From Spiribacter curvatus (GTDB lineage Bacteria; Pseudomonadota; Gammaproteobacteria; Nitrococcales; Nitrococcaceae), in NCBI RefSeq assembly GCF_000485905.1, contig NC_022664.1, forward strand, positions 1,807,001-1,871,000: a stretch of 64,000 nucleotides of DNA, read 5' to 3'. The notes beneath the pieces are model-generated. The model was not told the DNA's origin. It was given only the letters and a program-made list of their open reading frames with translations, and did no database searches. Below, in pieces: positions 30,239-46,990 of this stretch. Positions within the stretch are counted from its first letter, which is position 1. Each line of letters starts with the position of its first letter. Made by a program: the position numbers and the translations under genes.

Positions 30239-31028
30239 TCGCCCAATCCGTCTATCGAAAGGCCATCAGACCTCCCTAGATCGCGCGATACATGATGTGC
30301 CATTTTCTGAAAACATGGCACGTCTGCACTTAGGTGCATCCTTGCAGTGCAATGTCCATTGGGTCCTCGGCGCATTCACCTCAGCCGGCCACCACGGCGT
30401 CGAGATTTATCCGACATACCGCTCGTCGATAATCTCCTCAAGCGCTTGGGCGTCGCCACCCTTGTGGCCGGACGATCATCACGCATCATCCGCTCCAGGT
30501 TTCGGCGGGTGAAGACAAGCCGCCGATGCGCAGCCGGTTCGGTAGGTGGCAGGCAAGGCGGTGAGGGTGTTATGGCAGAGGGGGGATAACGCGTGACGTT
30601 CTCCGTCAAGTATCTCAATGCCCGAAGTAAAACGGCACATGACCAGGCCGAGTGTCGAATCAGCGAGTTACGCACGCCGGAACGGCGTTCACCCGGCTGA
30701 GACCGCTCAACCGCACTAACGCATGGCATAAAACCGTTCGACGTAGAACGTCGCGCATTACCACTCCCCAAAACAAGGTACCGCAACCAAGGGCCCTTCC
30801 GGGTTAGGATAGACTACGCTCACTGCTCATTGCTTACTGCCCACTGCCCAGCGCCCAGCGCCCACCGCTCACTGATCACTGCTCAACGCTCAGCGGTCAG
30901 ACATTGCCCACCGTTCCCGACAAAGCCCAGCGCGCCGCCCCGCCCCGCGCCGCGCCGCGCGCCACGTCCGTCACCCAGCGCATATCACTCCCAGCCAACA
31001 ATGCGTCATCGCCACTGATCAAGGTATA
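30239..31028. other. long non-coding stretch upstream of the first ligase gene
   Basis: About 790 bases without a convincing gene. The first 300 bases show nothing recognisable. From 30547 the sequence is the first copy of a direct repeat found again at 36053. It includes GACGTAGAACGTC, a degenerate run of GCTCACTG-like 8-base units (about 30826-30900) and the leader of the ligase gene. It may be a long untranslated leader or mobile remnant DNA. Confidence 0.7.
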
Positions 31029-31492
31029 TTGCCCCTGCTCACGGACGATCGGACCCGCACATTGAACACCGCCAGCGCATCCAACCCGCCTACGCCCACG
31101 CCAACGCCAACGCCGCCGAGGGCGCCCCTCACCCGCAGCGAGCAGTTCATCACCGCCGCGGTATTCCTGTTCCCGGCGCTGGCGCTGACCGTCCCGGATG
31201 GCTACTCCATCGGCGCAGTGGCACTGCTCATCGCGGCGGTCAGCCACCGCATCGCCGCTCGCGACACCTGGGCGCAGCAGCCGCCCCTGCCGACCGCCGT
31301 GAAGGCGGTGATCGCGTTCATGATCGTCTACGCCCTCTACTGGATGGGGGACGCGGCGCTGCGGGGCGAAGGCCTGAGAGAGTTCGACCGACCCAGCCGC
31401 TTTCTGCTCGCGGCGTTCTGCCTGAGCGTCTTCGCCCGGGCGCGTATCCAGCAGGGCGCGCTGTGGCTGGGTCTGGCGGTGGGCGGCATCGG
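30547..31492. repeat. direct repeat, copy 1 (leader and 5' part of ligase gene)
   Basis: Begins GGCAGGCAAGGCG and ends near GGCGGCATCGG. It matches 36053-36976 in the same orientation with scattered substitutions and short indels. The strongest identity is from about 30670 to 31240, including the codons for SNPPTPTPTPTPPRAP. The two copies are 5.5 kb apart. Confidence 0.9.
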
Positions 31493-32432
31493 TGCCGGAG
31501 GGGTTGCGTTATGGCAGCGAATGATCGAGGGCATCCCGCGCCCATCGGGCTTTTCGCAGATCATTCAGTTCAGCAACGCTAGCGTTCTCATCGGTTTGAT
31601 GTGCATGGCCGGCCTTCTCTGGGCGATGCGCCTGCCCACCGACCACAACCGTCCAAACGTCCAGAGGACGCTGCTCATCGTCACCCTTATAGGCGGGGCT
31701 GGCGGCGGTCTGATCGGGGCATTGCTGCCGAGCACCCGCGGCGCCTGGCTCGCTTTCGCCCCTGCACTGCTCATCGGGCTCTGGGTCACCGGGTCACTGG
31801 GGCGCGGGCGACGCCTCATGCTGATCACCGCGACGATGATCCTGCTCACCACCGCCGCCACCTATCTCCTGTCCACCGCCAGCACCGACACCCCGCCTCC
31901 CGGCAACACGGCGGACACCACAGCCGCCGCGGCACCCGAGCATCCCCTCGCTCCCGCGGTCCGCGCCCGCAGTGTCGAGCTTCGACTGGAGATGTGGAAA
32001 GGCGCCTGGCAGCTGATCCAGGCCCGGCCGATGCTGGGCTGGGGCGAGCTTGGCTACGTAAGCAAGACCGACTCCCTGGGAGCGGCGGGCGTGATCGACC
32101 CGGTCGCCGCCGACTTCACCCATGCCCATAACGAATGGCTGAACGTGATGGCGAAAAAGGGCATTGTGGGCGCCACGATCCTGCTTGGGCTCTACCTGTC
32201 GCCCCTCATTGTCTTCAGCGGTGTGTATCGGCGAGGTGAACGCGACCGCCGTGAGGGACTCGCCGGCCGAATCGCCCTGCCCACCGCCGGGCTCATCTTC
32301 ACGCTCGGTCTGATGGCGACCGGCATGACGCAGGTGAACTTCAACCACAATATCGGCGTGATGGTCTATGCGTTTATGACGGCCGTGCTGGTCGGCGCTG
32401 TCAGCGATGCGAATGAATCCCGCGCGTCCTGA
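31029..32432 (+). CDS. O-antigen ligase/polymerase family protein, copy 1
   Basis: A 467-residue integral membrane protein with about ten or more hydrophobic segments after a Pro/Thr-rich N-terminal tail. The large periplasmic loop contains RLEMWKGAWQLIQARPMLGWGELGY and FTHAHNEWLNVMAKKGIVGATILLG, the Wzy/WaaL (PF04932-type) signature with the HNEW motif. Such proteins polymerise repeat units or attach glycans to lipid A or protein; these roles cannot be separated by sequence. The start is TTG at 31029 behind AAGG. The 3' end overlaps the opposing WbpM-type gene by 67 bases. Confidence 0.87.
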   Translation: MPLLTDDRTRTLNTASASNPPTPTPTPTPPRAPLTRSEQFITAAVFLFPALALTVPDGYSIGAVALLIAAVSHRIAARDTWAQQPPLPTAVKAVIAFMIVYALYWMGDAALRGEGLREFDRPSRFLLAAFCLSVFARARIQQGALWLGLAVGGIGAGGVALWQRMIEGIPRPSGFSQIIQFSNASVLIGLMCMAGLLWAMRLPTDHNRPNVQRTLLIVTLIGGAGGGLIGALLPSTRGAWLAFAPALLIGLWVTGSLGRGRRLMLITATMILLTTAATYLLSTASTDTPPPGNTADTTAAAAPEHPLAPAVRARSVELRLEMWKGAWQLIQARPMLGWGELGYVSKTDSLGAAGVIDPVAADFTHAHNEWLNVMAKKGIVGATILLGLYLSPLIVFSGVYRRGERDRREGLAGRIALPTAGLIFTLGLMATGMTQVNFNHNIGVMVYAFMTAVLVGAVSDANESRAS

Positions 32433-35771: not shown

Positions 35772-36513
35772 CGCATATCGCGGTCATCGCGCCCGGTCGC
35801 GGGGATCTGCAGATTGTAAACGGCAATGCGGGAGATCATGAGCCATAGTATACGGCGGCGGGTCTACTTGGGGCGGCCTCATCGATATTGGTGGTGTGTG
35901 CTCTGCTCCCGGTGATTTGCCCACCTGCATCGTAAGGCCTTATTAGGCACGCATCCGAGACCGGCCCCTCCGCGAACTCATCAGGGAAAACTGCTGGGCT
36001 AAGGATCTGATTCAGAGCGACATGATGGTTGAGGGCGCACTAACGCGCTTTGGGCAGGCAAGGCGATGAGGGTGTTATAGCGGAGGGGGCTTAGGCATGA
36101 CGTTCTTCGTACAACATCATTAGGCCAGACGTAAAACGGCCTCCTATTATGCAGATCGGAGAATCAACGAGTTACGCGCGCCGGAACGGCGTTCACCCGG
36201 CTGAGACCGCTCAACCGCACTAACGCATGGCATAAAACCGTTGGACGTAGAACGTCGCGCATTACCACTCCCCAGAAAAAGGTATCGCAACCAAGGGACC
36301 TTCCGAGTTGGGACAGGCTGCGCTCACTGCTCACTGCTTACTGCTCACTGCCCACCGCTCACTGATCACTCCTCAACGCTCAGCGGTCAGACATTGCCCA
36401 CCGTCCCCGACAAAGCCCAGCGCGCCGCCCCGCGCCGCGCCGCGCGCCACGTCCGTCACCCAGCGCATGTCACTCCCAGCCAACAATGCGTCATCGCCAC
36501 TGATCAAGGTATA
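35772..36513. other. long non-coding stretch upstream of the second ligase gene
   Basis: About 740 bases. The first 280 bases, up to 36052, hold no feature I recognise. From 36053 the region is the second copy of the direct repeat, with the GACGTAGAACGTC motif and the GCTCACTG-like 8-base run at about 36324-36390. An open frame reaching back to 36241 is an accidental extension of the ligase frame. Confidence 0.65.
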
Positions 36514-36976
36514 TTGCCCCTGCTCACGGACGATCGGACCCGCACATTGAACACCGCCAGCGCATCCAACCCGCCTACGCCCACGCCAACGCCAACGCCG
36601 CCGAGGGCGCCCCTCACCCGCAGCGAGCAGTTCATCACCGCCGCGGTATTCCTGTTCCCGGCACTGGCGCTGACCGTCCCGGATGGCTACTCCATCGGCG
36701 CAGTGGCACTGCTCATCGCGGCGGTCACCCACCTCGTCGCCAACCGTCGCACCTGGGCACAACAGCCGCCTCTGCCGACCGCCGTGAAGGCGGTGATTGC
36801 GTTCATGATCCTCTACGCCCTCTACTGGATGGGGGACGCGGCGCTGCGGGGCGAAGGCCTGAGGGAGTTCGACCGGCCCAGCCGCTTTCTGCTCGCGGCC
36901 TTCTGCCTGAGCGTCTTCGCCCAGGCGCGTATCCAACAGGGTGCGCTTTGGCTGGGTCTGGCGGTGGGCGGCATCG
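36053..36976. repeat. direct repeat, copy 2 (leader and 5' part of ligase gene)
   Basis: Same orientation as 30547-31492. Identity is highest across the leader and the first about 75 codons of the ligase gene, and becomes patchy after GGCGGCATCGG. Recombination between the copies would delete the WbpM, sugar transferase and epimerase genes. Confidence 0.9.
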
Positions 36977-37899
36977 GCACGGGTGGACTGGCCATCACCC
37001 AGAAACTCATCGAGGGCCACTCGCGCGCCAACGGCTTTGCGCAGACGATCCAGTTCGGCAATGCCAGCATGCTGATCGGATTGATGTGCTTGGCCGGCAC
37101 GATCTGGGCGGCCAGCCGACCGACAACGCGACGCGGTCGTGCGCTCACGGTTGCAATATTGATCCTCGGTGGCATCGGCGGCCTGACGGGGTCTTTCCTC
37201 TCCGGCAGTCGCGGCGCCTGGCTGGCACTTGGCCCGGCACTGCTGATCGGGCTCTGGGCCGCCGTGCGGCTTGGTCACACGCGTCGCTATCTCGTCCTCG
37301 CTCCGATGGCGCTCGCGCTACTGGTCGCTGCCGTCTATCTCCAACCGGCGACCGGCGTCGCACACCGCATAACCGGCGCCGCGCAGCAGTTAGAGCATTA
37401 CATTGACGGCACCGACCGCACCAGCAGCGTTGGCTACCGACTTGATATGTGGAAAGGCGCGTGGCGGTTGTTCAAGTCAAGGCCACTGACCGGCTGGGGT
37501 GAGCAAGGCTACATCGAGCGAACGCGCGAACTGGGTGCGTCGGGCTACATCGCGTCTGGCGCCGCGCAATTCACTCACGCCCACAACGAGTGGTTCAACA
37601 CGCTCGTCAAAAAGGGGATCATTGGTGGAGCGGTTCTCTTAGGCCTCTACCTCATGCCAGCGGTGTGCTTTCTGCGACTGAGAACCAGACCACCCGGCGA
37701 CCCGTCGCAAACGTTAAAGGCGCCCTGTCTCGCCGTAGCGACTGCCGGGCTTATTTTCATGTTTGGATTTATGGCGACCGGACTCACGCAGGTGAACTTC
37801 AATCACAACATCGGTGCAATGACGTTCGCATTCATGACTGCCGTGCTGGTGGGCTTATCGGTCGATCCGGCGCGCCGCTCCCCCGTCGACGATACGTAA
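36514..37899 (+). CDS. O-antigen ligase/polymerase family protein, copy 2
   Basis: A 461-residue polytopic protein paralogous to the gene at 31029. The N-terminal 150 residues are nearly identical, the central part has diverged, and the C-terminal loop again carries RLDMWKGAWRLFKSRPLTGWGEQGY and FTHAHNEWFNTLVKKGIIGG. I use the TTG at 36514, equivalent to copy 1 (AAGG, then 4 bases). A longer frame to 36241 translates the repeat run and lacks support. The 3' end overlaps the opposing WecA-fusion gene by 45 bases. Confidence 0.85.
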   Translation: MPLLTDDRTRTLNTASASNPPTPTPTPTPPRAPLTRSEQFITAAVFLFPALALTVPDGYSIGAVALLIAAVTHLVANRRTWAQQPPLPTAVKAVIAFMILYALYWMGDAALRGEGLREFDRPSRFLLAAFCLSVFAQARIQQGALWLGLAVGGIGTGGLAITQKLIEGHSRANGFAQTIQFGNASMLIGLMCLAGTIWAASRPTTRRGRALTVAILILGGIGGLTGSFLSGSRGAWLALGPALLIGLWAAVRLGHTRRYLVLAPMALALLVAAVYLQPATGVAHRITGAAQQLEHYIDGTDRTSSVGYRLDMWKGAWRLFKSRPLTGWGEQGYIERTRELGASGYIASGAAQFTHAHNEWFNTLVKKGIIGGAVLLGLYLMPAVCFLRLRTRPPGDPSQTLKAPCLAVATAGLIFMFGFMATGLTQVNFNHNIGAMTFAFMTAVLVGLSVDPARRSPVDDT

Positions 37900-40317
37900 T
37901 GGCACCCTAGAGGGAGAACTCGGTTCATCTCCACTCGTGGCAGGCGGTGCGCCCGCCGAGCTGGACTGATGCGAATCAAGACTGGCCGCCACGCCCAACG
38001 CCCAGACAGCGGTGATGATCACGCCACTCAATGGGTCATGAACCACGGGCGAGAGCAAGAACAAGCCGAGCACACTCCACAAAAGCCCATACGCGGTGAT
38101 GACTTGAACGAGCGGCCAGGCCTGACGGCGGCCCGCACGCGAGACCGCCCGCATCCAAACAGCGATCAATGCGACGAACAAGCCCAGCCCCGGCAGTCCG
38201 CCTGTCAGTAGCAATGATGCATAAGCTGATCGATAAGTTGGTAAAGCCCCCTGCGGGCGCTCTTCCGCCGTGAATGGCCGCCCGTCGCCCGCCAGGGGAC
38301 GCTGCGCCGATGCCTGAACAACCGACCGCCAGTCCGCCAGCCTCGAGGCGACGCCGGGATAGCGCGTCTCGGCCTGCGTCGTTGCGCCACCGAGATAGAG
38401 GAAAGCAGCCTGAACCGGCCCCCAGTACTGCTCATCCAGGGACACGCCCGGCGGCTTGAACGTATTCGCGAGCAGACTCCCCAGCAGGATGGTCACAACC
38501 GTCGCGCCCACAACGCTGACGCGAAGCGCACGCTGCTCACCCGGTCGCATGGCGGCCACCACCATGGCGACAAGCCCAACCAACCCGGCCGCGACGGCCG
38601 ATTGCAAGGACAGGCCAAGCAGCAAGAGCAGCAGCATGGTTACCCCAAGGACAGCACTCACCAGGCTCGCCCGTGCGCGCCAGCGCCGTGTATAGCTCGT
38701 GATCCCGTAGGCACCGGCACCGACCAGAACCATGAGCATCAGCACCAGGAGGAGGCCACCGGTCTGGACACTACCCCAGTGATCGGCGGTGCGGAGGTAG
38801 CCGGCTTCGAGCATCTGCCAGTCCGCTCCGAGCGCCCAAGTGCCGATGAGCGACGCCACCGCCAGCGAGAAAAGCGGTAACGCATGATGCCGGTAGCGGC
38901 CGAGCCACCAGCCGAGCGGCAGCGCGAACGCCCCGGTCATCCACATCACGGGGAGCCAGACGGCTGCCAACGGCTCGGGCCGCAGAAAAACGGCAAGCGT
39001 CATCCAGGCCGCCATCATGAGCGCAAGCCGTGTAATGGCAAGGCCGCGCAGAGCGGCGGCGATCGCCTGTCGTTGCGCGAGTGATGCCAGCCCGATCAAC
39101 GCCACTCCAGCGCCCACTATCCCACCTCGGCCTGCCGGCAGCGCCAACGCAACGGTGTAGATCCCCACAAGCGCCATGCGGTCGATGACCGGTAGCCGGT
39201 CGGCATCCGATCGCGCCAACAACCCCCGCAGCCGCCGGATCGCCTTCGTGGTCCGCCAGGCGTAGCGCACGAAAAAATAGTGAGCACTGGCGACCAGCAA
39301 AAGGGCCAATCCGAGCAGGACATCGGGGACACCGATGAGCGACCCCGCCAGGCCAATCACGGCCATGACAAGCGTGAGGCCGCTGAAGATCATCGCCGTC
39401 TGCCCGGGCGTGAACCCGGCGCGTCCAAGAATATGGTGCAAATGATTGCGATCGGCGTGAAACGGGCTCTGACCCCGCATCAATCGCCGGATCATCAGAT
39501 TGAGCGTATCGATGACCGGCAACGCGAGCACCCAGGCAATGCCCACCGGCGCAATCGGAGAGGCCGCGCGCTGCGAGACATCGATCGCCACCCAGGCGAT
39601 CGCGAACCCAAGCATCAACGTGCCTGCGTCGCCGAGGAAAACAGTCGCTCGTGGGCGCCAGGGCGTGCGCAGATTAAAGACCAGAAAACCGAGGCAGGCA
39701 CCGCATAGCGTCGCGGCAATCAGCATGGCCGAGGCGGCATCAGCCACCCATGCCGCAATGCCCAACGCAGCGAGCATGACCACTGCCGTGCTCCCGGCCA
39801 GGCCATCCACGCCGTCGATCATTTTGAAGGCATTCACAAAGCCAACGATGGCAATCACGGCGACCGGTGCGGCGAGAAAGCCCATTGCAATGAGTCCACC
39901 ACCCGGCCATATACCGATGCGCTCAAGCGCGAGTCCCGCAGCAAAGACCGCCACGAGTGCTGCCATCACTTGTACGCCGAACTTCGGAGCGCTGCCCAGA
40001 CCACGCTGATCATCGACAAGGCCGAAGAGCAGCAGACCGAGAAGCGCACCCGCAAAGGGGGCGCCCGCGCTTAGAAGGGTGCCAAAGCCTGAATCGGTCT
40101 CATGCAGTCCCAGTACGATTGGCAACGCGGCCGCCAGCGCGATGGCCATGCCCAGACCACCCACAACCGGTGTTGGCCGCTGATGTTGCTTACGCCCACC
40201 GGGCCGGTCCACCAGGCCGAAGCGCCTCGCGTGTCGGCGCAGCACCCCAATCGCGAAGACCGCGACCAACAGTGCAGCGGTGAATCCAGCAGTGCCTGCC
40301 GCGAGAAGTTGTTCCAA
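37855..40317 (-). CDS. WecA/MraY-type transferase fused to a ligase-like membrane domain
   Basis: An 820-residue polytopic protein. Residues 1-350 form a complete polyprenyl-phosphate HexNAc-1-phosphate transferase: DD at 102-103, NAFKMIDGVDG at 162-172, FLGDAG at 227-232 and the HxRxHxHH-type HADRNHLHH at 287-295. Residues about 375-800 add around ten more hydrophobic segments and a loop (SRLADWRSVVQASAQRPLAGDG, then YRSAYASLLLTGGLPGLGLF) resembling the O-antigen ligase/polymerase domain, without the HNEW signature. WecA homologues are normally about 350 residues. The start is TTG at 40317. The fusion implies initiation and a later membrane step in one chain (inference). Confidence 0.85.
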   Translation of the reverse strand: MEQLLAAGTAGFTAALLVAVFAIGVLRRHARRFGLVDRPGGRKQHQRPTPVVGGLGMAIALAAALPIVLGLHETDSGFGTLLSAGAPFAGALLGLLLFGLVDDQRGLGSAPKFGVQVMAALVAVFAAGLALERIGIWPGGGLIAMGFLAAPVAVIAIVGFVNAFKMIDGVDGLAGSTAVVMLAALGIAAWVADAASAMLIAATLCGACLGFLVFNLRTPWRPRATVFLGDAGTLMLGFAIAWVAIDVSQRAASPIAPVGIAWVLALPVIDTLNLMIRRLMRGQSPFHADRNHLHHILGRAGFTPGQTAMIFSGLTLVMAVIGLAGSLIGVPDVLLGLALLLVASAHYFFVRYAWRTTKAIRRLRGLLARSDADRLPVIDRMALVGIYTVALALPAGRGGIVGAGVALIGLASLAQRQAIAAALRGLAITRLALMMAAWMTLAVFLRPEPLAAVWLPVMWMTGAFALPLGWWLGRYRHHALPLFSLAVASLIGTWALGADWQMLEAGYLRTADHWGSVQTGGLLLVLMLMVLVGAGAYGITSYTRRWRARASLVSAVLGVTMLLLLLLGLSLQSAVAAGLVGLVAMVVAAMRPGEQRALRVSVVGATVVTILLGSLLANTFKPPGVSLDEQYWGPVQAAFLYLGGATTQAETRYPGVASRLADWRSVVQASAQRPLAGDGRPFTAEERPQGALPTYRSAYASLLLTGGLPGLGLFVALIAVWMRAVSRAGRRQAWPLVQVITAYGLLWSVLGLFLLSPVVHDPLSGVIITAVWALGVAASLDSHQSSSAGAPPATSGDEPSSPSRVPLRIVDGGAARRIDR

Positions 40318-40410: not shown

Positions 40411-41723
<1,313 letters not shown>

Positions 41724-41727
<4 letters not shown>

Positions 41728-44567: not shown

Positions 44568-45761
44568 TCAACCACTTTGGGTCAGCCGCCCATCAGGCAC
44601 TGACGAGGGCAGATTGACGATGCGGTCCTGCAGCCAGCGAGAGACTGCCAGGCCGTCGTGCTGGCAATGCTGGTACATGGGCAGATCGGTCATGAGCTCC
44701 CAGATGGGACGGGTCATGATGCCCTCGGCGTTGGTGGCCTGGAGCAGGGCATCGCGCTCAGTGCGATCCGCCATCAGGATGGCGTTCAGCCAGTAGTTGA
44801 CCGTGGTACCGGGACGCTCGGTGATGAAGGTCTCGGGGCGATCGGCGAAAAAGGCCTCGTAGCGGGCGGCGACCTCGCGCTTGGCGGCAATCATCTCGGG
44901 CAGACGCCCCATCTGCGCCACGCCCAGGGCGGCGTTCAGGTTGGGCATACGGTAGTTATAGCCCAGCTCATCGTGGACGAACTCATAGGTGTGCGGGCGC
45001 TTGGCGGTGGTGGTGAGGTGCTTGGCGCGGGCGGCGAGATCCGGGTCATCGGTCAGGATCATGCCACCCCCGCCAGTAGTGATGATTTTGTTGCCGTTGA
45101 AGCTGAGTGTGCCGAGTCGGCCGATGGTGCCGGCGTGACGGCGGTTGATCGCGGTGTCCAGCTCGCCCGCTGTGTCGCCCGGCGAATCTACCCAACTCCC
45201 GAGGGCCTCAGCGGCGTCCTCCACCAGCGGTAGGCGATAGCGCTCGCAGATCTCAGCGATCGCTTCGATACGGGCCGGGTGGCCAAAGGTGTGCATCGGC
45301 AGCACCGCCGCAATGCGGCGGCCCGTGTGACGATTGATGGCACCCTTTCCGGTTACCTCTGCGGCGTCTTCCAGAAACCGCTCAAGCGCCTCCGGCGACA
45401 GCCCCAACGTGTCCTCATCCACATCCACAAACACCGGCGAGGCACCCGTGTAAGCCACCGCATTCGCCGTCGCGACAAAGGTCAATGCCTGCGTAATGAC
45501 TTCGTCGCCGGGCTCAACGCCGGATAGGCGCAGCGCTACCTGAATCGCCGCTGTGCCATTGACCGTGGCTACGGCATGGCACGCGCCAGTAAACGCCGCC
45601 ACTTGGCGCTCAAACTCGCCAATCAGCTCCCCAGCCGATGAGACGAAGTTGGAGTCAATACACTCGAGCACGCGCGCCTTTTCATCGCCGGCGAAGATCG
45701 GGCGATGCAGGGGCACGGGGCCATCGCCGTAGATGGAGCGGATGTTATTGATTAGGGTCAT
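44568..45761 (-). CDS. DegT/DnrJ/EryC1/StrS aminotransferase, LegC-like
   Basis: A 397-residue PLP sugar aminotransferase. VATVNGTAAIQVALRLSGVEPGDEVITQALTFVATANAV, the cofactor Asp region LPLVEDAAEALGS and the Schiff-base Lys in SFNGNKIITTGGGGMI are visible. The opening IRSIYGDGPVPLHRPIFAGDEK and the overall form match LegC, which aminates the 4-keto sugar made by a LegB enzyme for legionaminic-type acids. It starts 48 bases after the SecB-like gene, on the same strand. Confidence 0.9.
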   Translation of the reverse strand: MTLINNIRSIYGDGPVPLHRPIFAGDEKARVLECIDSNFVSSAGELIGEFERQVAAFTGACHAVATVNGTAAIQVALRLSGVEPGDEVITQALTFVATANAVAYTGASPVFVDVDEDTLGLSPEALERFLEDAAEVTGKGAINRHTGRRIAAVLPMHTFGHPARIEAIAEICERYRLPLVEDAAEALGSWVDSPGDTAGELDTAINRRHAGTIGRLGTLSFNGNKIITTGGGGMILTDDPDLAARAKHLTTTAKRPHTYEFVHDELGYNYRMPNLNAALGVAQMGRLPEMIAAKREVAARYEAFFADRPETFITERPGTTVNYWLNAILMADRTERDALLQATNAEGIMTRPIWELMTDLPMYQHCQHDGLAVSRWLQDRIVNLPSSVPDGRLTQSG

Positions 45762-45809: not shown

Positions 45810-46217
45810 CTATTCTGCGCTCGGCGCGAAGCTTACGGTGGGCAACATCAACGCGGGCCAGGGTCCTCTGGCTGTCACGGATAGTAGATGCTCTCGGGCA
45901 GCGCCGTAGAGAATTGATGCGCCGGTTATGCGCACGACTGTCTCACGCTCGTCCTCTGGCCAATCCGGTGATACCGAGAAGAAACCGTAAACCTCGACTT
46001 CAACGTCATAAGTGCCTGGCCCGAGCTCAGCCTCGTCCCGCATAATAGTCATCCGCAACTGATAGCGGTTTTCATCCTCGATATGCGGATAGAGTTCAAT
46101 CTCAGTGTTTACCGCAGGTGAGCGCTCGAACTGCGGGTCGTCCTCCCCATCAGGCAACTGCGCATCCACCAGCAAGCGCTTGAAGAAATAGTTCTCAAGC
46201 TGCAATGGGGGTGTCAC
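45810..46217 (-). CDS. SecB-like chaperone of a TA-chaperone (TAC) module
   Basis: A 135-residue protein resembling SecB. LENYFFKRLLVDAQLP, YDVEVEVYGFFSVSPDW and GASILYGAAREHLLSVTARGPWPALMLPTVSFAP align by eye with E. coli SecB (the FLCEVQQGGIFSI and [23 protein letters not shown] regions). I choose GTG 46217 because GGAGG lies 5 bases upstream and the protein then begins like SecB. It overlaps the antitoxin gene by 23 bases. In known TAC systems such a chaperone stabilises the antitoxin through its C-terminal tail. Confidence 0.82.
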   Translation of the reverse strand: MTPPLQLENYFFKRLLVDAQLPDGEDDPQFERSPAVNTEIELYPHIEDENRYQLRMTIMRDEAELGPGTYDVEVEVYGFFSVSPDWPEDERETVVRITGASILYGAAREHLLSVTARGPWPALMLPTVSFAPSAE

Positions 46218-46596
46218 GACGACCTCCTGCCATCGGCTTCTGTAAACCGGTTTTCGTGAAACCGCCCAACAAACGCTTTGGTTCCTTTGCCGGCTTCGGG
46301 TCGGCAGACCATTGGCGGTTATCAACCGGCTCGTTCAGCCTAACCTCCAACTCACCACCAACTGCCCGGGCAAGCTTGACCATGGTCTCGAGCGTGACGT
46401 TTCCACTGCCACGCAGGACTTTGGTGATATAGCCGCGGCTGACCCCAATCTGGCGCGCAAGGTCAGCTCGACTCATCCCCTGCCGGTCCATCCGCTCGCA
46501 AAGATCCTCGGTGAACTCGAGCGAGACTTTTTCTACCCAGTATGCGTCGCCGGTCTTCGCTTCCTCTAGCAGATCTGTAAAACTCCGCTTACTCAT
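46195..46596 (-). CDS. XRE-family antitoxin of the TAC module
   Basis: A 133-residue antitoxin. The HTH is DRQGMSRADLARQIGVSRGYITKVLRGSGNVTLETMVKLARAVGGELEVRL (about 37-87). A C-terminal extension of about 45 residues, basic and rich in Gly, Pro and Lys with a single Trp (PVDNRQWSADPKPAKEPKRL), goes beyond the usual HigA length and is the position of the chaperone-addiction segment in TAC antitoxins. It overlaps the toxin gene by 8 bases and the chaperone gene by 23. Confidence 0.85.
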   Translation of the reverse strand: MSKRSFTDLLEEAKTGDAYWVEKVSLEFTEDLCERMDRQGMSRADLARQIGVSRGYITKVLRGSGNVTLETMVKLARAVGGELEVRLNEPVDNRQWSADPKPAKEPKRLLGGFTKTGLQKPMAGGRRDTPIAA

Positions 46597-46990
46597 CGCT
46601 TACCTCCAGCGTGTTGTCACGCTTCGCGGCTTGGTACTGCGCCATATACCGCTTCGCGGTGCCGATTTCCTGGCGAGGCGTCTTTTGCCCCTTCTTAACG
46701 AAGCCATGTGTGCAGACGATCACCCGTCCACTGTCGTAATACCAGAGGACTCGGAGGGAGCCGCGTATGAACTCGTAAACTCCGTCGTCCAGACGCTTAC
46801 TGGCGTCTGTGTTGTGCCTTGGGGGACCACTTATCGCCGCTTTCTCCAACAAACTCACCATACGGTCCCGATCTTTGACCAAGTTGGCCTCCAGCTCGTC
46901 GAAAAACTCCAGCAACAGGCAGTCACCTCGATCGCGGCAGACGGCCAGCAGCTCAAACTTGCCTTTCCATGGCATTTTCAGGAGGTGCAT
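46589..46990 (-). CDS. RelE/Gp49-like toxin of the TAC module
   Basis: A 133-residue HigB/Gp49-type toxin. DRDRMVSLLEKAAISGPP, KRLDDGVYEFIRGSLRVLWYYDSGRVIVCTHGFVKKGQKTPRQEI and AKRYMAQYQ are the typical strands and C-terminal helix, with the basic residues expected of an mRNA interferase. It is the first gene of three overlapping genes (toxin, antitoxin, SecB-like). An alternative ATG at 46975 would remove five residues. Confidence 0.87.
   Translation of the reverse strand: MHLLKMPWKGKFELLAVCRDRGDCLLLEFFDELEANLVKDRDRMVSLLEKAAISGPPRHNTDASKRLDDGVYEFIRGSLRVLWYYDSGRVIVCTHGFVKKGQKTPRQEIGTAKRYMAQYQAAKRDNTLEVSDE

Follow-up and report, generated by a model that had tools for sequence, protein, structure and literature searches.

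WecA enzymes act at the cytoplasmic face of the membrane and normally end near residue 350-370. For the O-antigen ligase WaaL of E. coli, passages of one study describe R215, R288 and H338 as important and as conserved in PglL (PMC3643930). Passages of another suggest roles for arginines in guiding the substrate or binding its pyrophosphate and for the histidine as the catalytic residue, a His-to-Ala variant of PglS serving as an inactive control (PMC12800693). The stretch of DNA analysed here (the window) covers 64,000 nucleotides of the genome of the salt-loving bacterium Spiribacter curvatus (contig NC_022664.1, positions 1,807,001 to 1,871,000). It carries on its minus strand, at 37855..40317, a gene in which a WecA-type half is followed by about 450 more residues constituting a second membrane domain with a predicted WaaL fold. 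In this domain two of the three residues important in E. coli WaaL are missing. With moderate confidence, and on the strength of alignments and structural models, the protein is read as a WecA-type initiating transferase with a retained WaaL/Wzy_C pseudo-ligase domain that may serve as a scaffold, sensor or carrier-binding module. Among the matches listed in a literature search (titles and abstract openings, with passages of PMC7484181 and PMC11340318), no WecA-ligase fusion or dead ligase is described.

A WecA-type half joined to a predicted ligase fold

The gene is an unbroken frame of 820 codons plus a stop. It starts with TTG, with AGGA 7 nt upstream, and the plus strand read in that same frame is interrupted by several stops. 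The Spiribacter curvatus genome consists of one contig of 1,926,631 bases. Open frames containing both domains, 799-863 amino acids (aa) long, occur in 11 further genomes (12 with the window copy), and the Spiribacter salilacus record NZ_WJPP01000005.1 carries a matching gene. The continuous frame proposed in a first-pass annotation of this DNA is thus confirmed. Because the same architecture recurs in 11 further genomes, with a junction conserved in sequence among the aligned fused homologues, a frameshift or an artefact of sequencing or assembly is rejected as its cause; the explanation that two genes were joined by such an error, already refuted by the other assemblies, retains a negligible probability.

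Residues 1-364 (39226..40317, minus strand) constitute a polyprenyl-phosphate N-acetylhexosamine (HexNAc)-1-phosphate transferase domain of the WecA/MraY type. PF00953 matches residues 89-247 (E 4.2e-35, 121.5 bits against a cut-off of 27), and the WecA model TIGR02380 covers residues 14-362 nearly end to end (model positions 6-345 of 346). Its score of 238 bits is below the curated cut-off of 326.05, so that the half is called WecA-type and not certified WecA, with a putative sugar specificity. The residues D102 D103, N162, D168 G169, D171 G172, D230 and H292-L293-H294-H295 are invariant in all eight aligned fused homologues; we take them to correspond to the Asp pair, the N/DG-D-G loop and the HLHH motif of WecA and PF00953 proteins. 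In the AlphaFold2 whole-chain model (predicted local distance difference test, pLDDT, 75.5; predicted template modelling score, pTM, 0.62), this half matches MraY with Z 31.2 and a root-mean-square deviation (rmsd) of 2.7 over 297 residues. The invariant residues, the PF00953 match and the MraY-type fold bear out the complete set of WecA motifs claimed at first pass. A phmmer search with the whole chain gave MraY as the sole match. In 10 of the 12 fusion genomes, the PF00953 proteins found are the fusion and a single shorter one (361-590 aa) that is presumed to be MraY; G011 and G023 have one PF00953 protein beyond the fusion and the presumed MraY.

The two halves meet in a strongly basic junction at residues about 350-375, of which residues about 357-375 occupy 39193..39249 (minus strand); it is predicted from its sequence and positive-inside reasoning to be cytoplasmic; pLDDT falls below 50 at residues 358-374. 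The C-terminal tail, residues 788-820 (37858..37956, minus strand), is probably disordered, with pLDDT below 50 at 789-820.

Between them lies the WaaL-fold pseudo-ligase domain, residues about 375-787 (37957..39195, minus strand). When the genome was searched with PF04932 (Wzy_C), the window copy matched over profile positions 4-149 of 149 (38173..38643, minus strand; E 5.6e-7) with 29.4 bits, just below the cut-off of 31.7. Six of nine full-length fusions pass this cut-off; the other three are the window copy, G011 (27.4 bits) and G004, which is not among the matches at E <= 1e-5. In hmmscan, the C-terminal 456 residues of the window copy gave no match in Pfam or NCBIfam at E <= 1. Six of the eight aligned fusions, all of them other than the window copy, match Wzy_C with E values of up to 10, the lowest being 5.8e-12. 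A C-domain profile search of PDB sequences returned nothing at E <= 10. By contrast with these sequence searches, hhalign of the eight fused C-domains against stand-alone ligase-family proteins gave a probability of 100% (E 1.7e-42). The fold agrees, since the best match of a model of the C-domain alone (pLDDT 78.3; pTM 0.79) is WaaL, 7tpg_B (Z 22.7, rmsd 4.3 Å, 355 of 403 residues aligned), followed by FtsW as the next family (Z 15.1). Residues 375-784 of the whole-chain model match 7tpg with Z 24.1, and in Foldseek WaaL 7tpg (E 1.4e-5) is the only match below 0.001 for the C-domain model. The possibility that the C-domain represents a separate family was rejected, as its relatives, the PF04932 search of the genome, hhalign and the fold comparison all indicate WaaL. 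Structure prediction and profile search of this region, the checks suggested at first pass, thus gave a WaaL fold and a near-cut-off Wzy_C match, and together with hhalign they show that the likeness to the O-antigen ligase family had been assigned correctly. No polymerase profile appeared among the C-domain matches in the general Pfam and NCBIfam scans, and no search for polymerase motifs was made.

Ligase residues in fused and stand-alone domains

Outside the fusions, the nearest relatives come from the same order and are stand-alone Wzy_C proteins (L081/L043, L023, L083-L085; E 3e-52 to 1e-43), which are alike over nearly the whole domain but are encoded by separate genes and have both arginines and the histidine intact. 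Likeness to WaaL itself extends from the fold and the overall sequence profile to the second arginine, Y699 and G707, each present in all 12 fused domains, and to the RPxxG motif, which is mostly present (R in 9, P in 10 and G in 12 of the 12). The differences lie in the position behind WecA and in the ligase residues. Judged by sequence order and by residue counts in an alignment of the neighbouring ligase with 7tpg, R215, R288 and H338 of E. coli WaaL would correspond to R191, R265 and H313 of 7tpg and to the positions (T/S)R, RLxxW and HxHN. In a MAFFT alignment of the 12 fused C-domains with 19 stand-alone proteins (17 from chosen loci and the two neighbouring ligases), the site of the first conserved arginine, residue 572 (38602..38604, minus strand), is Q in the window copy; it is R in 19/19 stand-alone proteins and in none of the 12 fused domains. 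The second arginine, R659 of RLADW (38341..38343, minus strand), is kept in 19/19 and 12/12. At the site of the catalytic histidine, residue 696 (38230..38232, minus strand), the window copy has R; H is found in 19/19 stand-alone proteins and in 3/12 fused domains, namely those of Halomonas alkalisoli, Halomonas gemina and Billgrantia aerodenitrificans. The comparison was enlarged with all other profile hits in which no WecA domain is present (31 rows). After one cut piece of a fusion, four copies of the neighbouring ligase and one copy of an already aligned protein had been set aside, both arginines and the histidine were kept in all 25 further distinct stand-alone proteins, which makes 44/44 with the first 19. 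Three other positions were dropped as markers of loss: at residues 511 and 630, R is present in 16 of the first 19 stand-alone proteins and in 0/12 fused domains, but neither site is diagnostic because among the 31 added rows (some of them copies) R occurs there in just 8 and 20, respectively, and N697 is S in 13 of those rows. The Fisher p of 7e-9 for the arginine loss ignores the kinship of the fused rows and is not to be taken at face value. In a C-domain tree of 30 rows (12 fused and 18 stand-alone, the partial row L050 being left out), the fused rows form one side of a branch with 100/100 support, so that the loss of the first arginine was probably one event.

The full-length fusion is spread over 12 genomes in about 9 genera. 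In the genus, 14 genomes were compared, a set that includes incomplete drafts: three have the long form, four a short form and seven neither; in the order, the long form occurs in 8 of 54 genomes. Wider samples, weak negatives since at most 4 candidates per genome were scored, gave clear near-full-length matches in 3 of 369 genomes of an even class sample (G000, G015 and G141), a count that leaves out five weak matches in frames of 650-717 aa, and a match in the window's own genome alone among 398 genomes of the phylum. Within its family, G141 is the only carrier (1/12). A scan of GTDB 220 confirmed 10 loci among 120 candidate stretches: eight long fusions (three from Halomonas/Billgrantia), one short form and one stand-alone relative.

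The short forms of the genus, five versions in four genomes, are open frames of 666-720 aa in which the centre of the domain is absent. Its start is still there, from profile positions 17-22 up to 193-216 (up to 127 in the weakest version), as is its end, from 321-354 up to 431-435; hmmscan of two of these forms gave no Wzy_C match. The five versions form a single clade (100/100), which groups (98/97) with the full-length copies found in three genomes of the genus. WecA-only relatives exist as well. The base of the group is open in the WecA-side tree, which fits one gain followed by losses or several gains.

These data bear on the idea, raised at first pass, that the same chain starts a glycan and carries out a later membrane step. 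A true bifunctional enzyme would require the C-domain to be an active ligase or polymerase working with a different set of residues. Such activity would accord with the WaaL fold, with R659, G677, Y699 and G707, invariant in 12/12 fused domains, with the histidine of three of them and with conservation peculiar to the fused set. It is nevertheless quite improbable: the first ligase arginine is gone from every fused domain and the histidine from nine, the equivalent His-to-Ala change being that of the inactive PglS control in the passages cited above, and the sister clade of short forms is devoid of the domain centre. Moreover, all nine full-length fusion genomes searched encode one or more separate Wzy_C proteins that score above the cut-off, the residues being checked in some, and two ligase genes with all three residues lie close to the fusion in the window. 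A later step by the same chain is therefore not supported. Separate Wzy_C proteins were also found in three of the four short-form genomes; none was found in G010, a fragmented genome.

Retention and possible role of the C-terminal domain

A domain deprived of its ligase residues may be kept or may be on its way out. For the window copy and G004, the ratio of non-synonymous to synonymous substitution rates (dN/dS, Nei-Gojobori) is practically the same in both parts (WecA half 0.245, C-domain 0.246). In addition, Y387, R476, W546, R547, G581, L640 and A649 are invariant in all 12 fused rows and not conserved in stand-alone proteins. On these two grounds we read the C-domain as retained for something other than the standard ligase reaction. 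The competing explanation is a chance gene fusion whose ligase half has no function and is slowly eroding. Stepwise loss of residues, with the arginine missing in 12/12 and the histidine in 9/12, is what such a passenger would display, as are one large internal deletion within the genus, the faster divergence of the C-domain than of WecA in wide comparisons and the existence of relatives with WecA alone. We nonetheless consider it unlikely, in view of the persistence of the full-length domain, uninterrupted by stops, across 12 genomes from about 9 genera, of purifying selection that in the closest pair is seemingly as strong as on WecA, and of the invariant residues peculiar to the fused set. 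Both explanations, retained pseudo-ligase and passenger, agree that the C-domain is not a ligase, a statement that can be made with good confidence.

Several observations weigh against a retained pseudo-ligase. With a synonymous divergence (dS) of 1.3-1.5, close to saturation, the window copy and G004 give only rough dN/dS values, and more distant pairs show the C-domain changing faster than WecA (30% against 48% identity for the window copy and G017). The structural models were built on 9-10 sequences, and five full-length models have pLDDT values of 61.5-75.5. A pure scaffold need not keep R659, G677, Y699 and G707, and the histidine persists in 3 of the 12 domains.

Since residues needed by a ligase are lost, the C-domain, read as a retained pseudo-ligase, probably guides or regulates the process instead of doing chemistry; a scaffold or sensor role is drawn more weakly. 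In the proposed mechanism, the WecA half would transfer HexNAc-1-phosphate to undecaprenyl phosphate at the cytoplasmic face, with a substrate specificity that is predicted. The orientation of the second half can be approached through the membrane topology of the WecA and WaaL families. With a junction placed in the cytoplasm by the positive-inside rule, the C-domain would enter the membrane like a stand-alone WaaL, and its old carrier-binding cavity would face the periplasm. There it would no longer transfer glycan; as scaffold or sensor, it may tie initiation to downstream enzymes of the Wzy/WaaL type or to the state of the carrier lipid. A more specific proposal is a carrier-lipid module in the periplasmic leaflet that binds undecaprenyl phosphate there, or responds to the amount of undecaprenyl-linked glycan, and hands the carrier or a signal on to the WecA active site of the same chain. 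This is a long shot; if true, it would couple carrier recycling directly to the initiation of new chains.

How bacteria match the start of a surface glycan to what follows in the periplasm, and how they divide a small common supply of carrier lipid, are open questions. A natural protein in which the first enzyme is covalently tied to a disarmed version of the last one, kept in about nine genera and in 10 of 12 genomes the sole PF00953 protein found beside the presumed MraY, offers a handle on this coupling. For annotation, a Wzy_C-like domain in such a fusion need not mean a second ligase.

Other tailed WecA proteins and the surrounding glycan locus

A tail on WecA is not unusual; a whole disarmed ligase fold as the tail is. 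Many of the PF00953 frames among the matches listed in the class sample are 536-605 aa long. Seventeen of 20 fetched tailed frames, together with three more, align over one different C-terminal membrane extension of 220 residues (L103-L117, L120 and L122; L024-L026; frames of 536-678 aa from many families). These proteins resemble the fusion in that a single chain continues from WecA into further membrane segments, but no relationship between the extension and the WaaL domain was detected: hhalign gave a probability of 0.6%, against 100% for the positive control. Three extension-bearing WecA frames that were scanned had no other Pfam match over the cut-off. That the WecA proteins of 540-600 aa are remnants of the fusion is not supported by this hhalign result or by the C-domain profile, whose best E is 0.62. 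A 623-aa PF00953 frame (L118:1027-2895, minus strand) has a C-terminal GAGTNGDLYL resembling a nucleotide-binding fold and is perhaps, from this motif, a third kind of WecA tail.

The fusion gene lies within a surface-glycan locus. Upstream of it, all on the minus strand and assigned by profile, are a UDP-sugar dehydrogenase directly next to it (40411..41727), a sugar transferase of the monotopic initiating class (PF02397; 41724..42443), a nucleotide-sugar dehydratase (PF02719; 42453..43640) and a LegC-family sugar aminotransferase (44568..45761). Downstream, also on the minus strand and assigned by profile, are an NAD-dependent epimerase/reductase (PF01370; 34851..35771), a bacterial sugar transferase of the monotopic initiating class (PF02397; 34282..34854) and another nucleotide-sugar dehydratase (PF02719; 32366..34264). 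With two PF02397 transferases beside the WecA fusion, the locus holds three candidate initiating enzymes of two unrelated classes. The two separate ligase genes, identified by profile and motifs, lie downstream of the fusion on the opposite strand, with intact GSRGAW/STRGAW, RLxMW and HAHN motifs. The nearer (36241..37899, plus strand) encodes an O-antigen-ligase-family (Wzy_C) protein with GSRGAW, RLDMW and HAHN; its start is uncertain, and it overlaps the facing fusion gene tail to tail by 45 bp (37855-37899). The other (31029..32432, plus strand) is its intact paralogue. At six other fusion loci, 20 chosen neighbours were scanned, and 10 are glycan genes (three Wzz, three glycosyltransferases, three UDP-sugar dehydrogenases and one Wzy_C); for the remaining 10 the scan gave a different family or no match. 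Spiribacter salinus is reported, in a passage of PMC5923411, to have rough lipopolysaccharide, so that the glycan product of the window locus need not be a lipopolysaccharide O-antigen.

Five direct repeats of 112-300 nt, 5.46-5.50 kb apart and 72-98% identical, connect 30581-32396 with 36085-37854, the best of them (98% over 300 nt) being at 30929 and 36414. They span the upstream regions and genes of both ligases and bracket the dehydratase, sugar transferase and epimerase genes; the ligase genes could thus be recombination borders of a glycan cassette. Finally, a Gp49/HigB-type toxin, a helix-turn-helix antitoxin and a SecB-like protein follow one another at 45810-46990 on the minus strand, in what looks like a toxin-antitoxin-chaperone module adjoining the glycan locus.

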